From the NCBI GenBank assembly GCA_020852815.1, contig JADZAN010000035.1:1-43985 (forward strand): DNA of 43,985 nucleotides, in the 5' to 3' direction. The notes below the pieces were generated by a model that was given only the letters and a program-made list of their open reading frames with translations, did not search any database and was not told the DNA's origin. Of this stretch, positions 350 to 38,299 are shown in pieces. Origin of the DNA: Gemmatimonadaceae bacterium. Its GTDB lineage: Bacteria; Gemmatimonadota; Gemmatimonadetes; Gemmatimonadales; Gemmatimonadaceae. Each line of letters starts with the position of its first letter. Position 1 is the stretch's first letter. Made by a program: the position numbers and the translations under genes.

Positions 350-475
350 CTTAACACGGAGGCGCACGGAGGAGACACGGACGAGACACGGACGAGACTC
401 GGAGGTAAACGAGGGAGTGCCGCGACGCGCCTTCATCCTCCGTGAGACCTCCGTGGACCTCCGTGTCGAGCTTTT
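350..475. repeat. Second CGGAGG / CCTCCG inverted repeat
   Basis: ACACGGAGG, GCACGGAGG and GACACGGACG units at about 353-405 face CCTCCGTG units at about 438-466. The right arm runs directly into TCGAGCTTTTC and a GGTCACCGG stretch that leads to the hairpin at 534. That order (CCTCCGTG units, TCGAGCTTTTC, GGTCAC, about 45 variable bases, GACAAATGG, hairpin) is the composite seen again, in the other orientation, at 17172-17280. Confidence 0.75.
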
Positions 476-533
476 CACGTTGCGGTCACCGGCGCCCGAT
501 GCGGCCAGTTGCGTGGAGCGCAACGACAAATGG

Positions 534-553
534 GTCCCAGCTTTCGCTGGGAC
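534..553. repeat. Dispersed hairpin repeat, copy 1
   Basis: A perfect 8-bp stem with a 4-base loop: GTCCCAGC, TTTC, GCTGGGAC, preceded by GACAAATGG. Perfect or near-perfect relatives lie at 652-671, 2584-2599, 3730-3747, 17172-17189, 17607-17624, 17903-17922, 18108-18126 and 18311-18330. In most copies the loop or one arm base differs but pairing is kept, as expected of a REP-like element. Confidence 0.8.
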
Positions 554-651
554 GTTGGGCGCTGGGACGTTGGGCGCTGGGAAGGTGAGCGCTCGGCGCC
601 GTTTTTCGTTCGCCCGAACCGGCCAGCCGCGTGGAGCGCGACGACAAATGG

Positions 652-671
652 GTCCCAGCTTTCGCTGGGAC
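652..671. repeat. Dispersed hairpin repeat, copy 2
   Basis: Identical to the hairpin at 534-553, including the upstream GACAAATGG. The 50 bases before it (GGCCAGCCGCGTGGAGCGCG and neighbours) also match those before copy 1, so the pair is a tandem duplication with a period of 118 bp. Confidence 0.8.
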
Positions 672-5043: not shown

Positions 5044-6225
5044 CTATCTCGTCTTCTCGTCCTCTCGTCCTCTCGTCTTCTTCAGAATGACTTCATCCAG
5101 ATCGAGATGCCCCTGCCACGCCGCCACCGGCTCCCCCAGCAGGATGAGGCGCGCGATGTGCCCCACGATCCCCGCCGCGTAACGCGCCTCGCTCGCCAGC
5201 TGCGGATAGCCACGCAGCTCGCTCCCGATCTTGCGCAGCGACTTGCGCGACCGCTCCGAGATAGCCTCCCATCCCCCCAGCCAGTTGGTGAGCGCGACAT
5301 AGAAGTCCTTCGTCGAGGCGAAGTCGCCGCGTGACCGATGGGCATCGGCGTTGTCGCCGAGGAAGGGCTGCAGCGCCGGATCGTTGCCGTATGGCTCGAT
5401 GCTCACGAAGCCCCGCTCGTCGGCGGCGTACAGCACGTTGCGACCGATGCGGCGCGCCTCCTGCCGCACCAGCCCCTTGATGGGGAGTGAATCGCACTCC
5501 TCCAGCACAAGGTCGACGCCACGCAGGAAGTCGCCGATGTTCTCTGACGTGACGCCCCCGTGCAGCGCCCCGACGCGCAGGTACGGATTGAGCTTGGCGA
5601 TGCGGCGCGCGACGATCGTCGCCTTGGGGACGCCCAGGTCGTCGCACCCGCCGCCGAGTCGATTGAGGTTGGAGAGGTCGAGCGCGTCGAAGTCGGCGAG
5701 CCAGATCTCCCCGCACAAGTGCTCCTGCGCCACGTTGACCGCCGCCTCGCCCCCTACCGAGAGTCCGATCACCCCGATGCGCTTCGTGCGTAGCAGCGCC
5801 TGCTCCTCGGCGGTGAGCTTGTCCTGATTGCGGTTGGTGATGACCGCGAAGTAGCCGTCTTCTCCCAGCAGATGGACGACGCGCCGGTCCCACGGGAAGT
5901 GCCACCACGTCCCGATGGCGTCGCGATCGCCCGCGGCGCGCACGATCGCCGCGGCATGCGCGTGCAGCGTGGCAACGTCGCTCACCGACGGATGGAGCAC
6001 CTGCACCAGCTCTTGCAACTGGCGGTCGATGGAATCGTGCACGGTGAGGTGCCGCGTGGCGCAGAGGGCGCGGAGTGCGTCGCCATCGCCCGGCTGGAGG
6101 ATGATCGGGACGGGGCGCCACGTCTCATGCGCCGCGATGTCGAGGGCGTCCAGCGCCTCGCGCCATTCGGCCAGGGTATGCAACCGATCCACAGCGACAA
6201 TCGAGGGGCGGTCGACGGCGGTCAC
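5044..6225 (-). CDS. ThiF/MoeB-like E1-type adenylyltransferase
   Basis: About 393 residues. The central part is an E1-like ATP-binding fold: IGVIGLSVGG forms the glycine loop and DFDALDLSNLNRL is the D-x-D ... NLNR signature that holds ATP and the C-terminus of a ubiquitin-like or peptide substrate. The paired CxxC zinc motifs of MoeB/ThiF are absent. The first 140 residues are a separate domain I cannot name, containing TWWHFPWDRRVVHLLGEDGY. Its GTG start overlaps the stop of the MarR-GNAT gene by four bases. The last dozen or so codons (KKTRGREDEKTR) are made from the 8-bp dispersed repeat. The partner that is adenylylated is unknown; no ubiquitin-like or ThiS/MoaD gene lies in the window. 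Confidence 0.85.
   Translation of the reverse strand: MTAVDRPSIVAVDRLHTLAEWREALDALDIAAHETWRPVPIILQPGDGDALRALCATRHLTVHDSIDRQLQELVQVLHPSVSDVATLHAHAAAIVRAAGDRDAIGTWWHFPWDRRVVHLLGEDGYFAVITNRNQDKLTAEEQALLRTKRIGVIGLSVGGEAAVNVAQEHLCGEIWLADFDALDLSNLNRLGGGCDDLGVPKATIVARRIAKLNPYLRVGALHGGVTSENIGDFLRGVDLVLEECDSLPIKGLVRQEARRIGRNVLYAADERGFVSIEPYGNDPALQPFLGDNADAHRSRGDFASTKDFYVALTNWLGGWEAISERSRKSLRKIGSELRGYPQLASEARYAAGIVGHIARLILLGEPVAAWQGHLDLDEVILKKTRGREDEKTR
5048..5087. repeat. 8-bp dispersed repeat forming the 3' end of a gene
   Basis: CTCGTCTT / CTCGTCCT units, the complement of the AGACGAGA repeat. This copy lies inside the 3' end of the ThiF-like gene and supplies its last residues before the TAG at 5044-5046. 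Confidence 0.8.
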
Positions 6226-16025: not shown

Positions 16026-17015
16026 GTGAAACTCCTCGTTCTCAATTGCCACGAGGCCTGGATCCACCAGCTGGGTGTGCTCCGGGCCGAGCTCGATATC
16101 GTCGTCGGTCTGCCGGGGCGCTACACGCGCGGGTGGGATGATCACATGCGCCCGCTTCCCGCGCTCGCGCGCCTGGTCACGCTCGATGACGTGCGCTGCG
16201 GCACGGTGCAGTACGACTGCGTCGTGAACCACAACATCACCGACCTGCTCGACACCAAGTTCGTCGATGCGCCCAAGCTCCTCGTCCTGCACGACACGCT
16301 CGAGGGACGCATGGCGCAGCAGGACGCCGACTTCGACGCGCGCGACATGCGCGCCGTGCTCAACACCTACCTGGCATCCGTGGGCGGACACGCCGTCGCC
16401 ATCTCGCGCTCCAAGGCCAAGTCGTGGGGGGTGACGCACGTCGTCGTGCAGAACAGCGCCGATCCCGAGGCGTATCTCCCGCACGTGGGCGACGTGGCGT
16501 GCGGGCTGCGCGTGGCCAATCACGTGACCTCCAAGCGCGTCTTCCTGGCGTGGGACTTCCACGAGGAGGCCATGGCCGGCCTCCCTCTGCGCATCGTTGG
16601 TCACAACCCCGAGCTTCCGGGCGTGGCGCCGGCCGACGATTGGGATCACCTCAAGCGCATGCTGGCCTCGCATCGCTTCCTGGTCCATACCGCCGACCCG
16701 CGCTACGAGGACGGCTACAACATGGCGGTGCTCGAGGCCATGGCGGCCGGAATGCCGGTGCTGACCAACCGTCACCCGACCGGCATCATCGAACATGGCG
16801 TGACCGGCTTCGTGGCCGAGACGCCCTTCGAGATGCACGCCCACGCCGAGCGCCTGCTGGCCGACGAAGCGCTGGCCCACGAGCTGGGCGCCAACGGCAA
16901 GCGCTACATCGAACGCCACTTCTCTCCCGACCGATTCCGCGTGGAGTTCGGGAAGGCAATCCAGGAGGCAAGGAAGAAGTGGGCGCGCCGGAGGGGGAAG
17001 TCGATGGCGCGGTAG
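16026..17015 (+). CDS. Glycosyltransferase family 4-like protein
   Basis: 329 residues, start GTG 16026, with no signal peptide. The C-terminal half is a GT-B nucleotide-sugar binding fold: DPRYEDGYNMAVLEAMAAGMPVLTNRHP carries the E-x7-E signature of retaining GT4 enzymes, followed by the usual HGVTGFVAET. The N-terminal acceptor domain is divergent and lacks the common glycine-rich start. It stands alone, without wzx/wzy or other surface-polysaccharide genes, so the sugar and acceptor cannot be named. Confidence 0.85.
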   Translation: MKLLVLNCHEAWIHQLGVLRAELDIVVGLPGRYTRGWDDHMRPLPALARLVTLDDVRCGTVQYDCVVNHNITDLLDTKFVDAPKLLVLHDTLEGRMAQQDADFDARDMRAVLNTYLASVGGHAVAISRSKAKSWGVTHVVVQNSADPEAYLPHVGDVACGLRVANHVTSKRVFLAWDFHEEAMAGLPLRIVGHNPELPGVAPADDWDHLKRMLASHRFLVHTADPRYEDGYNMAVLEAMAAGMPVLTNRHPTGIIEHGVTGFVAETPFEMHAHAERLLADEALAHELGANGKRYIERHFSPDRFRVEFGKAIQEARKKWARRRGKSMAR

Positions 17016-17029
17016 GGGCGGAGGAGGGA

Positions 17030-17095
17030 GAGCTTGCCCCGGCGAGGGCTGGGGGGAGGCGGGAGTGGCGGCCGCGGTGCGGCCGCCGTTTGCTT
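17030..17095. repeat. Composite hairpin repeat after the glycosyltransferase gene
   Basis: AGCTTGCCCCGGCGAGGGCT and G-rich sequence, then GGCGGCCGC, GGT, GCGGCCGCC (a strong 9-bp stem at about 17066-17090). It is the reverse-oriented counterpart of 3680-3747, again starting within about 20 bases of a stop codon. Confidence 0.75.
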
Positions 17096-17171
17096 TTCCC
17101 GGGGGTAACCGAAGCCGCGACGCGCCGAACCCAGCCCCCCACGTACCGAACCCAGCCTCCCACGCCCACCT

Positions 17172-17189
17172 TCCCAGCGAAAGCTGGGA
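17172..17189. repeat. Dispersed hairpin repeat
   Basis: TCCCAGC, GAAA, GCTGGGA, followed by CCCATTTGTC: the 534-553 hairpin on the other strand. A second copy with loop GGAA lies at 17607-17624. Each is followed by ACACGCGCGATCGGCTGC and, 30 bases on, by GTGACCGCGACACGAAAAGC and CGGAGG units. Confidence 0.8.
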
Positions 17190-17249
17190 CCCATTTGTCC
17201 TCGGCACACGCGCGATCGGCTGCTTCGGGGGCCAGTGACCGCGACACGA

Positions 17250-17545
17250 AAAGCTCGACACGGAGGTTCACGGAGGCGACACGGAGGCACACGGAGGAGA
17301 CGCGGAGGCGTACGGGGGGGGACGCGGAGGCGTACGGAGAAGAGGAGGCGCACGGAGGAGACGCGGAGGCGAACGGAGGCGCACGGAGGAGACGCGGAGG
17401 CGAACGGAGGCGCACGGAGGAGACACGGAGGCGAACGGAGGCGCACGGAGGAGACACGGAGGCGTACCGAGGCAGCACGGAGGAGCATAGAGGAGACACG
17501 GAGGCGTACGGAGGAGACATGGAGCCGTTCGGAGGCAACCGAAGC
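17250..17545. repeat. CGGAGG minisatellite array
   Basis: About 300 bases of head-to-tail 8-12 bp variants of ACGGAGGCG, ACGGAGGAG and ACACGGAGG. In places they combine into a higher-order unit near 30 bp (GCGAACGGAGGCGCACGGAG). The plus strand repeats the ribosome-binding core GGAGG more than 25 times. All three plus frames are open, but the products are pure Arg/Thr/Glu/Gly repeats, so I do not call a gene. Confidence 0.85.
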
Positions 17546-17830
17546 AGTGCCGCCACGTACCGAACGCAGTCCCCCACGTACCGAACCCAGCCCCCCACGC
17601 CCACCTTCCCAGCGGAAGCTGGGATCCATTTGTCCTCGACACACGCGCGATCGGCTGCCTCGGGGGCCAGTGACCGCGACACGAAAAGCTCGACGCGGAG
17701 GCGCACGGAGGAAGCACGGAGGTAACCGAAGCAGTGCCGCGACTTGCCTCGATCCTCAATGCGATGCTCGAGACGCAGCTGCGACGGCAGGCGTGGCCAC
17801 CACCACCGTTTGACTTTGGACACAGCTACT

Positions 17831-18430
17831 CCGTGTCGAGCCTTTCCATCGCCAACCCCGGCGTCATACGCAACCGGTCGCGCGCGACGTGAGGACAAAT
17901 GGGTCCCAGCTTGCGCTGGGACGGTGGGGCGCGGTACTGGCACTCACCCGCGCCTCTAAACGTCCACAGCTCTTCCTCCGTGATGCCTCCGTGATACCTC
18001 CGTGATACCTCCGTGTCGAGCTTCTCCCCCGAACCCCGTGTCGAGCCTTTCCATCGCCAACCCCGGCGTCACATACGACCGGTCGCGCGCGACGTGAGGA
18101 CAAATGGGTCCCAGCTTGGCTGGGACGGTGGGGCGCGGTACTGGCGCTCACCCGCGCCTCCAAACGTCCACAGCTCTTCCTCCGTGATACCTCCGCGTAC
18201 CTCCGCGTACCTCCGTGTCGCGCTTTTCCCCCCGAGCTCCGTGTCGAGCCTTTCCATCGCCAACCCCGGCGTCATACGCAACCGGTCGCGCGAGACGCGA
18301 GGACAAATGGGTCCCAGCTTGCGCTGGGACGGTGGGGCGCGGTACTGCCACTCAGCCCCGTCTCCAATCGTCCACAGCTCTTCCTCCGTGATACCTCCCT
18401 GATACCTCCGCGTACCTCCGTGTCGAGCTT
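17831..18430. repeat. Three tandem copies of a roughly 204-bp composite unit
   Basis: Units begin at 17831, 18036 and 18239 (spacing 205 and 203). Each contains TGTCGAGCCTTTCCATCGCC, CCCCGGCGTCA, an AACCGGTCGCGCG-like stretch, GACAAATGGGTCCCAGC with its hairpin (17903-17922, 18108-18126, 18311-18330), GGTGGGGCGCGGTACTG, a CCACAGCTCTTCCTCCGTG stretch and several CCTCCGTGATA units. The last copy stops about 110 bases before the hydrolase start. The units differ by scattered substitutions and unit loss. Confidence 0.85.
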
Positions 18431-18543
18431 CTCCCCCCCGCGCGTCTCCCCCCGAGCTCGTCCCTCGAGCCGCCCCACCGCCCTCGCCCCCCCAACCCCC
18501 CCGCCAGTACCTTCCCGCGCATTCCTTCATCCGCACGAACTCC

Positions 18544-19617
18544 ATGCGCGCGCTCCTCTCCGTCCTCTGCACCCTCGCTCTCGCGACCCCGGCTCTCCAC
18601 GCCCAGCCCAAGCCGGGTGACTTCACCCTCCCCGAGTACCGCTTCGCCTCCGGCGAGGTGCTGCCGAACGTCCGCCTCCACTACCTCACGTTAGGCACGC
18701 CGCGGCGCGATGCCACGGGGAAGGTTGCCAATGCGGTGATGATCCTCCATGGCACCGGGGGGACGGGGTCGCAGTTCCTGGGGCAGGGCTTCGCCGGGGA
18801 GCTGTACGGGAAGGGGCAGCCGCTCGATACCACGCGCTTCTTCATCGTCCTCCCCGACAACATCGGCCACGGACAGTCCAGCAAGCCGAGTGACGGGCTG
18901 CACATGAAGTTCCCGCACTACGGCTACACCGACATGGTCAACCTGCAGCGCCTCCTCCTGTCGCAGGCGCTGGGCGTCGAACGGCCGTTCATGATCATGG
19001 GGACGTCGATGGGATGCATGCACGCCTGGGTGTGGGGGACGCTGTACCCCGATGCCCCGCGCGCGCTCGTCCCGCTGGCCTGCGTCCCCACGCAGATTGC
19101 CGGACGGAATCGCATGATGCGGCGCATGATCATGGACGCGGTCATGCAGGACCCCGAGTGGAAGGGGGGCGAGTACACCTCGCCGCCGCGCGGGCTGCGC
19201 TCCGCACTCGGCATGCTCTTCATGATGTCGTCGGCGCCGCTGGTGCAGCAGCGGCAGGCCCCCACGCGCGACGTGGCCGACTCGGTGATCCGCGCCTATC
19301 TCGATGCGCGCATGAAGGTCACCGACGCCAACGACATGCTCTACCAGTTCGATGCATCTCGCGACTACGACCCGTCGCCGCTTCTCGACCGCGTGGTGGC
19401 CCCCGTGCTGCACATCAACTCGGCCGACGACCAGGTCAATCCCCCGGAACTCAGGCTCGCCGAGCCGCTCATTGCCCGCGTGAAGAGCGCGCGCTTCGTG
19501 ATGATCCCCATCAGCGACCGCACGCGCGGGCACGGGACGCACACCATGCCTGTCATCTGGGGCGACGAGCTGCGTCGCTTCATGGCGACGCTCCCGCCAG
19601 TGGACGGGGGGCGGTAG
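18544..19617 (+). CDS. Exported alpha/beta hydrolase, homoserine acetyltransferase-like
   Basis: 357 residues, ATG 18544. A Sec signal (LLSVLCTLALATPALHA) precedes an alpha/beta-hydrolase fold of the MetX/homoserine O-acetyltransferase group: ILHGTGGTG oxyanion region, nucleophile elbow GTSMGCMHAW, acid in NSADDQVNP, and His in GHGTHT. MetX is a cytosolic enzyme, so an exported relative is more likely an esterase or hydrolase than a methionine-pathway enzyme. No met gene is adjacent. It heads a run of plus-strand genes for exported proteins. Confidence 0.88.
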   Translation: MRALLSVLCTLALATPALHAQPKPGDFTLPEYRFASGEVLPNVRLHYLTLGTPRRDATGKVANAVMILHGTGGTGSQFLGQGFAGELYGKGQPLDTTRFFIVLPDNIGHGQSSKPSDGLHMKFPHYGYTDMVNLQRLLLSQALGVERPFMIMGTSMGCMHAWVWGTLYPDAPRALVPLACVPTQIAGRNRMMRRMIMDAVMQDPEWKGGEYTSPPRGLRSALGMLFMMSSAPLVQQRQAPTRDVADSVIRAYLDARMKVTDANDMLYQFDASRDYDPSPLLDRVVAPVLHINSADDQVNPPELRLAEPLIARVKSARFVMIPISDRTRGHGTHTMPVIWGDELRRFMATLPPVDGGR

Positions 19618-32880: not shown

Positions 32881-33013
32881 CGAGAAGACGAGAGGACGAG
32901 AGGACGAGAAGACGAGGAATTGCTTCTCGCGAACGAGCCATCATCAGCCGCGCACATCGCCCCCCTCCGCCACCCCTCGTCTTCTCGTCTTCCCGTCTTC
33001 CCGTCTTCTCTCC
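32881..33013. repeat. 8-bp repeat between and into the RND genes
   Basis: AGACGAGA / GGACGAGA units at 32883-32916 fill most of the 63-base gap between the two pump genes. CTCGTCTT / CCCGTCTT units at about 32976-33013 lie inside the 3' end of the upstream pump gene and encode its Arg-rich tail (ERRREDGKTRRRG). The two runs are in opposite orientation. Confidence 0.8.
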
Positions 33014-36000
33014 AGGGCCGCATACGCGGTCGGCAACAAGAAGAAGGTGACAAGCAACGCCGACACGCTTCCGCCAATCACCCCGGCCGCCAATGGCTGG
33101 TACAGCGCACCACCGCTCCCCCAGCCAAAGACCAGCGGCAGCACGCCGGTGATGGTCGTGATGCTCGTCATCGCGATCGCGCGCAGCCGCTGGTGCCCGC
33201 CGAGCATGATCGCGTCCTCGATCGAGTGCCCTTCCTCGCGGAAGCGCCGGATCGCGTCGAGCTTTACCACCGCCTCGTTGTCGGCCATCCCGATCATCAC
33301 CACGATCCCGATCAGCGCGACCGCGTTGAGCGACTGGCCGGTGATCCAGAGGAAGAGGATTCCACCCACCGCGGCCAGCGGGACTGTCAGCATCACCACC
33401 AGCGGGACCGTGAACGAGGCAAACTCGCCGGCGAGGACGAGGAAGACCAGCGCCACCGACAGCCACCCCACCAGCGTCAGTTCGCGCGTGGTGCGCTCCT
33501 GCTCGGCGTCGGCGCCGCTCACCTCGTAGGTGATCCCCGACGGGAGCGTGAGCGCGGCCATCGTTGCGCGCACGTCCTCGGCGGCGTTGCGCGTTCCCCC
33601 GCTCTCGATGAGCCCTTCCACCACCGCAACCGGGCGCTGCCCCACGCGCACCACTTCGATCGGCGCCTGGCGCTCTTCTGCTTTCACGAGTTGGGCTATC
33701 GGTACTCCCTTCACCGGCGTCGCCATTGCCTCCGCCAGGTCCTCGTTCTTGAGACCCGCAAAGCGCACGGAGATCGGCGTGCGACGGTCCGTCTCGCGGA
33801 AGTCGCTCGACTCCACCCCCCCCAGCCCGCCGGCCAGCGCGTTGGCCACGGCATCCACCGAGATCCCGCGCTCGGCGAGCAGCGTGCGCTGCAGCGTGAC
33901 CTCCACCACCGGCTGCGTTCCGCCGTTGGGGTCGCGGACGTCGGCCAGGGACGGGAGCTTCTGGAGCCGCGCGCGCGCCGTGTCGGCCCACCGCGCCGCA
34001 TCGTCCAGCGTGCGCGCACTCATCTCCACGCGCACCAGCCGCCCTTCGCGCCCGATGAGCGAGCCAAACTCCGACTGCCCCGCGAGGTCGAGCGCCAGCG
34101 CGCCAGCCGCAAGGTCCGGCACCGCTGCGCGCAGCTTGTCCGCAAACGCCGCCGCGCGCTGCCCCTCGGGCACCGGGACAAGGAGCTGCGCCGTCGCCGA
34201 CGACCCGGGCTCCGCGCCGGCGAGGATCTCCTCGTCCGTCGCCACCCCGACGCGCGAATAGATCCCCTTGGCCCCCAGCGTCCGCGCCGCCTCCTCGATG
34301 CGCCCCACCTGCTGCGTCGTCGCCTCGATCGCCGTCCCCTCCGGCAGATGCAACGCGGCGACTACCATCCCTTCATCCACCTGCGGCAGGATCTCCCGCG
34401 GAATGCGCCCCAGCACCCAAACCGTGAGCACGATCGAAGCCGCCGAGATGCCGAACACCGGCCATGGGTTCTTGAGCGCCCAGCGCATCCCGCGCTCGTA
34501 GAGGGCTTCGCTCTTCTCGCCGATGCGCGTGAGGAAGGGCGGACGGGAGACAGGAAAGCTCGCCCCAGAAAAGGCTGGTGGGAGACGCGAGTCCTCGCTC
34601 CCCTCGCCACCCGCCGCCCTCCCTCGTCTTCTCGTCCTCTCGTCTTCTCGTCTTCTCCCAACGATCATGACCGGCATCAGCGTCAACGCCAACACCAGCG
34701 ACGCGCCCACGCTTGTGACGACAGACAGCGATAAGTCCCGAAACAACGCCGCCGCGAGCCCCCGAACAAAGATGATCGGCCCAAACACCAGCAGCGTCGT
34801 CAGCGTCCCCGCAATCAGCGGCCCGCTCACCTCTTCCGTCGCCTCGATCGTCGCCTCCAGCAACGGACGCCCCTCCTCGCGCTTTCGCACCGCCGCCTCC
34901 GCCACCACGATCGCGTTGTCCACCAGGAGCCCCACGCCTAACGCCAGCCCCCCCAGGCTCAGCACGTTGATCGTCACGTCCAGCGCTTGCAGGATCACCA
35001 GCGCCAGGAGCACCGAGAGCGGGATCATCATCGCGATGGCTAGCGACATCCGCCAGTCGCGCAGGAAGAGCACAATCACGAACAGCGACAGGATCCCGCC
35101 AATCACGATCTCCTGCCCCAGGTTCGACAGCGCATCGACGACGAAGTTGGCCTGCGCGGCCACGATCGTGAGCCCGATGCCGGGAAACTCCTTGCGCAAC
35201 TGCTCGGCTACGCGCTGGATCTCCCCCGTCACGGCGACCGTGTTGGCTCCTGCGTCCTTGTAGACCACGAGCCCCACCGCCGGCCGCGAGTCGAAACGCG
35301 TGAGCGTCTTGGGGTCGGCCACGGTCGTCGTGACCGTCGCCAGGTCCTTGAGCGTGATCCCCGAACCCGCGGGCCCCACGGGGACGTCGCGAATCTCGTC
35401 AGGCGTGCGGAACTCGGTCAGCGTGCGCACCGAGAAGCGGAATTGTCCGCGCCGAATCGTCCCCCCCACTCCGCTCACGTTCGCCGCGCGAATCGCCAGC
35501 GAAACGTCGTTCGGCGTGAGGGCGAGTGCGCGCATGCGCGCCGGGTCCACCTCGATGCGCACCTCATCTTCCGGCGCCCCCACCACCGCCACGCTCGCCA
35601 CCCCGGCAATCTGCTCCAGTCGGCGTGCATGCACGTCCTCCGCCGTGCGCGCGAGCTGTCGCATGTCGCCGGCAATCGACATCGACAGTACCGCGATCGG
35701 GCGCTCCCCCGGGTCGCTGGTGAGCAGCGTCGGTCGTTCGGCGCGCTCCGGGAGCTGCGAACGGGCGTTGTCCAGCCGCTCGCGTACGTTGAGCAGCGTG
35801 GTCTGCATGTTGGTCCCCCACGCAAACCGCGCCGTCGTCGTCGCCTCGCCGTTGCGGCTCACGGAGCGCAGCTCCACCAGCCCCGGCGTGGCGGCAATGG
35901 CCTCTTCCACCGGCTCGGCAATGAAGCGCGACACCTCCTCGGCTGCAGCCCCTGTGTAGAGCGTGCGGATGGTCAGCACCGGGAGCTGCACGTCCGGGAG

Positions 36001-36120: not shown

Positions 36121-36155
36121 TAGAAGACGAGAAGACGAGAGGACGAGAAGACGAG
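36121..36155. repeat. 8-bp repeat between adaptor and pump genes
   Basis: Four AGACGAGA / GGACGAGA units make up most of the 55-base gap between the adaptor stop and the first pump start. Confidence 0.85.

Positions 36156-37539: not shown

Positions 37540-38299
<760 letters not shown>

Follow-up and report, generated by a model that had tools for sequence, protein, structure and literature searches.

What kind of element is a short hairpin that recurs in two loci of one bacterial contig, in both orientations and among repeats of several lengths, and by what route did it spread? The window studied here, meaning the whole stretch of DNA that was analysed, comprises 43,985 nucleotides from a Gemmatimonadaceae bacterium (GenBank assembly GCA_020852815.1, contig JADZAN010000035.1). 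It holds seven copies of GACAAATGGRTCCCAGC-loop-GCTGGGA, five on the plus strand and two on the minus strand. Two plus-strand copies, at 525..553 (stem 534-541/546-553, loop TTTC, tail GACAAATGG) and 643..671 (loop TTTC), are preceded by a short plus-strand CACGGAGG minisatellite with an 11-bp period at 354..405. The second locus lies between two plus-strand genes assigned by Pfam, for a group 1 glycosyltransferase (16026..17015) and an alpha/beta hydrolase (18544..19617). It contains two inverted copies on the minus strand, at 17171..17199 (7-bp stem, outer pair G.A unpaired) and 17606..17634 (loop TTCC, outer pair A.A unpaired), and a longer CACGGAGG minisatellite, a CGGAGG array with periods of 10, 21 and 31, which is listed on the plus strand at 17256..17536 and belongs to the minus-strand unit. 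Three 204-bp units follow head-to-tail at 17828..18438 (plus strand, 91% matches), each with one plus-strand hairpin: 17894..17922 (loop TTGC), 18099..18126 (loop TTG, 3 nt) and 18302..18330 (loop TTGC).

An earlier sequence-only reading had described a fixed module order (TCGAGC, a GGTCAC-like sequence, hairpin), the CGGAGG array, the three-copy tandem and loops that vary, and all of these are borne out; the loops found are TTTC, TTGC, TTCC and TTG. It had also held that the repetition is not due to chance. When up to three mismatches are allowed, GACAAATGGGTCCCAGC (17 bases) matches seven times in the window where shuffles predict 0.12, and none of 100 shuffles reaches seven. The 7-bp stem is identical in all seven copies and the outermost pair alone differs, being G-C in five and broken in the other two (G.A in one, A.A in one). 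The window has no Rfam match at the gathering score, and the array no sigma-70 promoter-like site. An intrinsic terminator was considered for the array and rejected, the candidates being two overlapping terminator-like matches at 17074-17089, outside the hairpins, with 0.6 expected.

How far does the hairpin extend beyond the window? In the source genome (G000; 5,378,811 bases, or 5.4 Mb, in 47 contigs) the 17-base core is present, with at most two mismatches, at 58 + 56 = 114 places, and its reversed control at none, so that chance fails as an explanation here too. With up to three mismatches, 113 places fall into 40 sites on 32 genome stretches; this copy set is incomplete, one further core place (C2:11609) having been left out of the counts. 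A conservation profile of 90 copies (the 101 with full flanks minus 11 from a 36-bp array) shows its high information between about -20 and +45 around GACAAATGGRTCCCAGCTTTCGCTGGGAMGGTGGGCG; more than some 100 bases away, on either side, it falls close to zero. Among the 105 of the 113 copies that have both flanks, the median identity of the upstream 60 nt is 0.88 for copies of the same orientation within a site, 0.47 for opposite orientations within a site and 0.37 between sites, as against 0.28 for random stretches; the corresponding downstream values are 0.60, 0.31, 0.30 and 0.28. Since the flanks agree far better within sites than between them, the core is what the sites have in common, and any larger unit is a product of local duplication. 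What appears to have been dispersed is the core itself, about 38 nt long (GACAAATGGRTCCCAGC-TTTC-GCTGGGAMGGTGGGCG).

The copies are arranged with a strong bias. Among 73 neighbouring pairs, 67 are head-to-tail, at spacings of 36-462 bp, six diverge (minus then plus), 276-620 bp apart, and none converges. Where copies diverge, an old inverted pair may have grown outward along both arms. Predicted genes are avoided by 39 of the 40 sites; the remaining one (L033), which overlaps such a gene, was kept in the set of 24 sites that have both neighbours, of which 11 lie between convergent, 9 between tandem and 4 between divergent genes (naive P 0.02 against an expectation of 25% convergent), these counts resting on a crude, home-made gene caller whose codon model was trained on 78 long open reading frames. 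The other 16 sites lack a neighbour owing to contig ends. Core copies lie less than 1 kb from 16 of the 94 contig ends of the genome; the repeat therefore probably breaks the assembly, at the start of the window's contig as elsewhere, and so explains part of the assembly gaps.

Do the relatives of this bacterium carry the repeat? Across 59 of them the core pattern gave just two mismatched matches, which make up one inverted place in G001, and none in G002, a congener whose genome is 99% complete. The two genes that flank the window array are also neighbours in G002, where the gap between them is about 250 bp and holds neither hairpin nor CGGAGG array; in the source genome it is 1,528 bp. Likewise, the two neighbour genes of a single-copy site (L054) lie next to each other in G001, a short gap apart. 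The intergenic DNA of the congeners is too diverged for a target duplication or an exact empty-site junction to be read. Both G002 and G001 have short CTCCGTG arrays at other places, which indicates that the minisatellite is a component in its own right, independent of the hairpin. Examples of such CTCCGTG/CGGAGG arrays in congeners, with no hairpin, are seen at L184 1080-1245 and L185 990-1050.

One might think that slippage, unequal exchange and gene conversion would account for everything, the repeat being a plain satellite with no transposition-like step. The strong local homogeneity and the head-to-tail order speak for it, as does an array in which about 12 cores follow one another every 36 bp; it leaves unexplained some 40 separated sites on many contigs that share a core and have unlike flanks, and the congeners lack the core. 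We consider this account unlikely. The array just mentioned (L053 694-1210, G000:C30 ~58813-59189) is a minisatellite with a 36-bp period in which each copy is barely more than the hairpin core. A MITE-like, non-autonomous transposon, in which the whole composite of 100-300 bp would be the unit and the enzyme an unrecognised one, has less in its favour. The same module order does recur in several places, and the 20-30 nt upstream of the core are moderately conserved across copies; however, the composite has no fixed length, with head-to-tail spacings from 36 to 462 bp, and the between-site identities of 0.37 upstream and 0.30 downstream are to be set against the random 0.28; nor were terminal inverted repeats noticed. 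That the composite moved as one transposon is thus distinctly improbable.

The sequence-only reading favoured mobilisation in trans and advised a search for a linked TnpA-REP transposase gene. The source genome has a single Y1_Tnp match, a 275-aa protein encoded on contig C9, which scores 77.8 bits against the NCBIfam model REP_Tyr_transpos, whose cut-off is 80. The gene is flanked by palindromes of the GGGGTCAGAGTCA type, a motif present at 54 + 55 = 109 places in the genome; the transposase's own palindrome, GGGGTCAG, is different from the hairpin core. Ten core-bearing genomes were also chosen, out of those to which the 48 core-bearing stretches described below belong; nine have Y1_Tnp genes, and the Devosia genome has none at E 1e-5. 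In those nine, none of 21 Y1_Tnp loci has the core within about 1.5 kb, so that no TnpA-REP gene linked to the core was found in the source genome or the other nine. Nor does any transposase appear in the 25 of 86 Pfam families listed for the 62 genes adjoining the sites. Although the hairpin, its copy number, its intergenic position and a Y1 transposase nearly at the cut-off would fit a REP/BIME family moved by such an enzyme (RAYT), the gene of that Y1 transposase is flanked by palindromes other than the core, the Y1_Tnp loci elsewhere lie apart from the core or, in Devosia, are lacking, and the consensus beside the stem has no GTAG tag, all of which makes this reading very doubtful indeed. 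The family shares with GTAG REPs, BIMEs and RAYTs the character of multicopy intergenic palindromes and differs from them in having no linked transposase, no GTAG tag and no alternating orientation.

At the C9 locus, the gene and its palindromes (G000:C9:243554-243886; L031 1384-2211) fit the TIRYT class, which has GGGGWSAS repeats according to PMC3733652. The genome has here a second dispersed family of palindromes, which is served by a Y1 transposase gene of its own and is unrelated to the core in stem and sequence; this family can act as an internal control.

If not these, what is the repeat? We think it probable that it is a lineage-specific, derived family of CGTC-type REPs, in which a core of about 38 nt was dispersed and was then duplicated locally. 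According to Di Nocera et al. 2013 (PMC3733652), CGTC REPs carry at one end a tag, CGTC (or TGTC/CCTC), that stays unpaired, a stem of 8-9 bp with two leading AT pairs, a loop of 4-5 nt and a CCA tail; inverted dimers predominate, head-to-tail pairs being "negligible", a dedicated transposase is absent, and how the elements spread is left open. With CGTC-1 of that description the present family shares an eight-position stem, a 4-nt loop, a CCA tail, an intergenic location, often between convergent genes, and the lack of an associated transposase; in addition, another genus in the family of the source genome has canonical copies. The loop has 4 nt in 107 of 108 perfect-stem copies (one has 3 nt; loops of 3-6 were considered), and ATGG (CCAT on the other strand) adjoins the stem, invariant or nearly so. 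The absence of a transposase holds for the genomes searched and the flanking Pfam families listed. The differences are as plain. The CGTC tag has become GGTGGGCG: the consensus after GCTGGGAM is GGTG, or CACC on the other strand, where G031 and the Proteobacteria have the canonical TGACG. The first stem pair is usually unpaired, a minisatellite is attached, the tail is G-rich, and head-to-tail arrays replace the close inverted dimers of CGTC-1. Since loop, tail and lack of transposase agree, and tag, first pair and arrangement do not, the family is best called a derived REP-like relative and not a plain member. For the sequence-only reading this means that "REP-like" stands, on the strength of a multicopy intergenic hairpin with a conserved tail and canonical relatives elsewhere, and that the alternation of BIMEs does not, 67 of the 73 pairs being head-to-tail; its observations were largely right and its interpretation half right.

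Where are the canonical relatives? A scan of a genome contig collection with CAAATGGRTCCCAGCNNNNGCTGGGA found 48 stretches, from Luteimonas, Pseudoxanthomonas, Lysobacter and other Xanthomonadaceae, Devosia, Undibacterium and a few MAGs. GGTGGG follows none of their 82 cores, and TGACG or CGACG follows most; no viral contig has a GGTGGG-tailed core. A covariance model run on 60 genomes matched only the source genome (64 copies, the number scored) and G031, of genus g30 in the same family (20, best 8e-7), where canonical CGTC-tagged inverted pairs are found, CGTCATTCCCGCGAAAGCGGGAATCCAT ... ATGGATTCCCGCTTTCGCGGGAATGACG. A broader pattern occurs in five of 148 family genomes, with 71 places in the source genome and 120, 39, 13 and 1 in four g30 genomes, and in five of 295 phylum genomes, one of which (G195) has just one place; the pattern is thus patchily distributed. 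The g30 genomes G031, G089, G109 and G123 have CGTC-type REPs at as many as 120 places; among them are many inverted pairs with a spacing of about 70 nt.

The derived-REP reading draws on the copy number set against an empty reversed control, conservation limited to the core, the head-to-tail order of 67 of 73 pairs, the intergenic position of 39 of 40 sites, the absence of the core from congeners and from the syntenic gap in G002, the canonical pairs in g30, the core with TGACG in Proteobacteria, and published CGTC REPs that, as described in PMC3733652, have no dedicated transposase. Against it count the loss of the defining tag and first stem pair, the "negligible" head-to-tail order in the families described there, a dispersal that is unobserved and whose junctions are unreadable, and the fact that the model by which G031 was found had the hairpin built in. 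The upstream 60 nt also count against it: homology of this module to the spacers of other CGTC REPs was considered and rejected (best E 0.57 and 1.2). The neisserial dRS3/mosaic clusters, as described in PMC3733652, likewise gather a CGTC-1 hairpin in large clusters. The stem sequence was not found in published papers; Di Nocera et al. 2013 (PMC3733652) does not mention gemmatimon- taxa, passages of the RepRanger paper (2025) do not mention gemmatimonad-, and the papers listed for gemmatimonads together with extragenic palindromes are, judged by title, unrelated.

Does the stem itself show that pairing has been maintained? The sequence-only reading saw compensating changes that keep it paired, and named stem covariation among genome-wide copies as the point on which its case depended. 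Within the source genome the TCCCAGC/GCTGGGA stem is nearly invariant. In 63 non-redundant copies (96 before near-duplicates were removed) there is hardly any variation in the seven inner pairs, the second pair being T-A in 61; the outer, first pair is a standard pair in 17 and unpaired in 46. Two-sided changes occupy one of 504 cells, a level reached by 207 of 500 shuffles, and a less filtered set of 127 copies agrees. For this genome, then, the claim of compensating changes does not hold, as the one stem shared by all window copies also indicates. The picture changes when 51 distinct cores from the source genome, genus g30 and Proteobacteria are compared: the stem then covaries, with 32 two-sided cells against 10.3 in shuffles and a covariation score of 0.246 against 0.115, reached by none of 500 shuffles. 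These rows were picked by patterns that demand a hairpin, and G031 was found through a covariance model already holding the stem, so that the covariation across families is support and not proof. The upstream 60 nt were also considered for a further stem, which was rejected: the high mutual information there tracks subfamilies, and only a weak 3-pair stem is predicted.

How might a derived CGTC-type REP have come to this arrangement? Single cores would have reached some 40 intergenic places by a route that does not depend on a dedicated transposase in the genome, perhaps by way of hairpins in single-stranded DNA at replication forks, or with an enzyme since lost. At each place the core, its local flanks and a CTCCGTG-type minisatellite are found duplicated head-to-tail, as would be expected of slippage or unequal exchange. 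The expansion of this family seems to have taken place in one lineage: two congeners are without it, another genus keeps the canonical form, and these states with and without the repeat offer a natural comparison for the spread of CGTC REPs. The hairpin may also act in RNA. A GNRA tetraloop, a stable loop in RNA, is present, on the strand opposite to the core as written here, in 98 of the 108 perfect-stem copies (GAAA 75, GCAA 19, GGAA 4), and a hairpin transcribed between gene ends could form a 3'-end RNA structure from one strand.

The G-rich tail raises a further question. A four-run G-quadruplex motif occurs within 80 nt on the hairpin strand in 53 of 110 copies, as against a mean of 9.3 in shuffled copies (maximum 13 in 50 rounds) and 1.5% of random places, an excess that may reflect one inherited sequence, as the copies share ancestry. 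With the stem left out only 10 of the 110 copies keep the motif; one of the G-runs therefore comes, as a rule, from the 3' stem arm. CGTC copies elsewhere have the motif in 1 of 80 and 0 of 35. It is conceivable, though we would give it little chance, that with the CGTC tag swapped for a G-rich tail the strand can change from hairpin to quadruplex and back, in transcripts or at forks, and that this predicted switch drives head-to-tail amplification in place of inverted pairs made by a transposase. If so, the 3' stem arm (GGG) would also be the first run of the predicted quadruplex, and the element would be a self-amplifying REP turned satellite.

The window has simpler repeats as well. Tandem arrays of an 8-mer like ACGAGAAG/CTCGTCTT, of 4-5 copies each, lie at 2601-2637, 5047-5081, 32881-32916, 32976-33010, 34623-34657 and 36122-36155, several of them near gene boundaries. 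ACGTTAGG occurs five times in the whole window, both strands counted, against 0.76 expected from base composition, in part within genes, and a perfect (CT)16 dinucleotide run spans 37650-37682.
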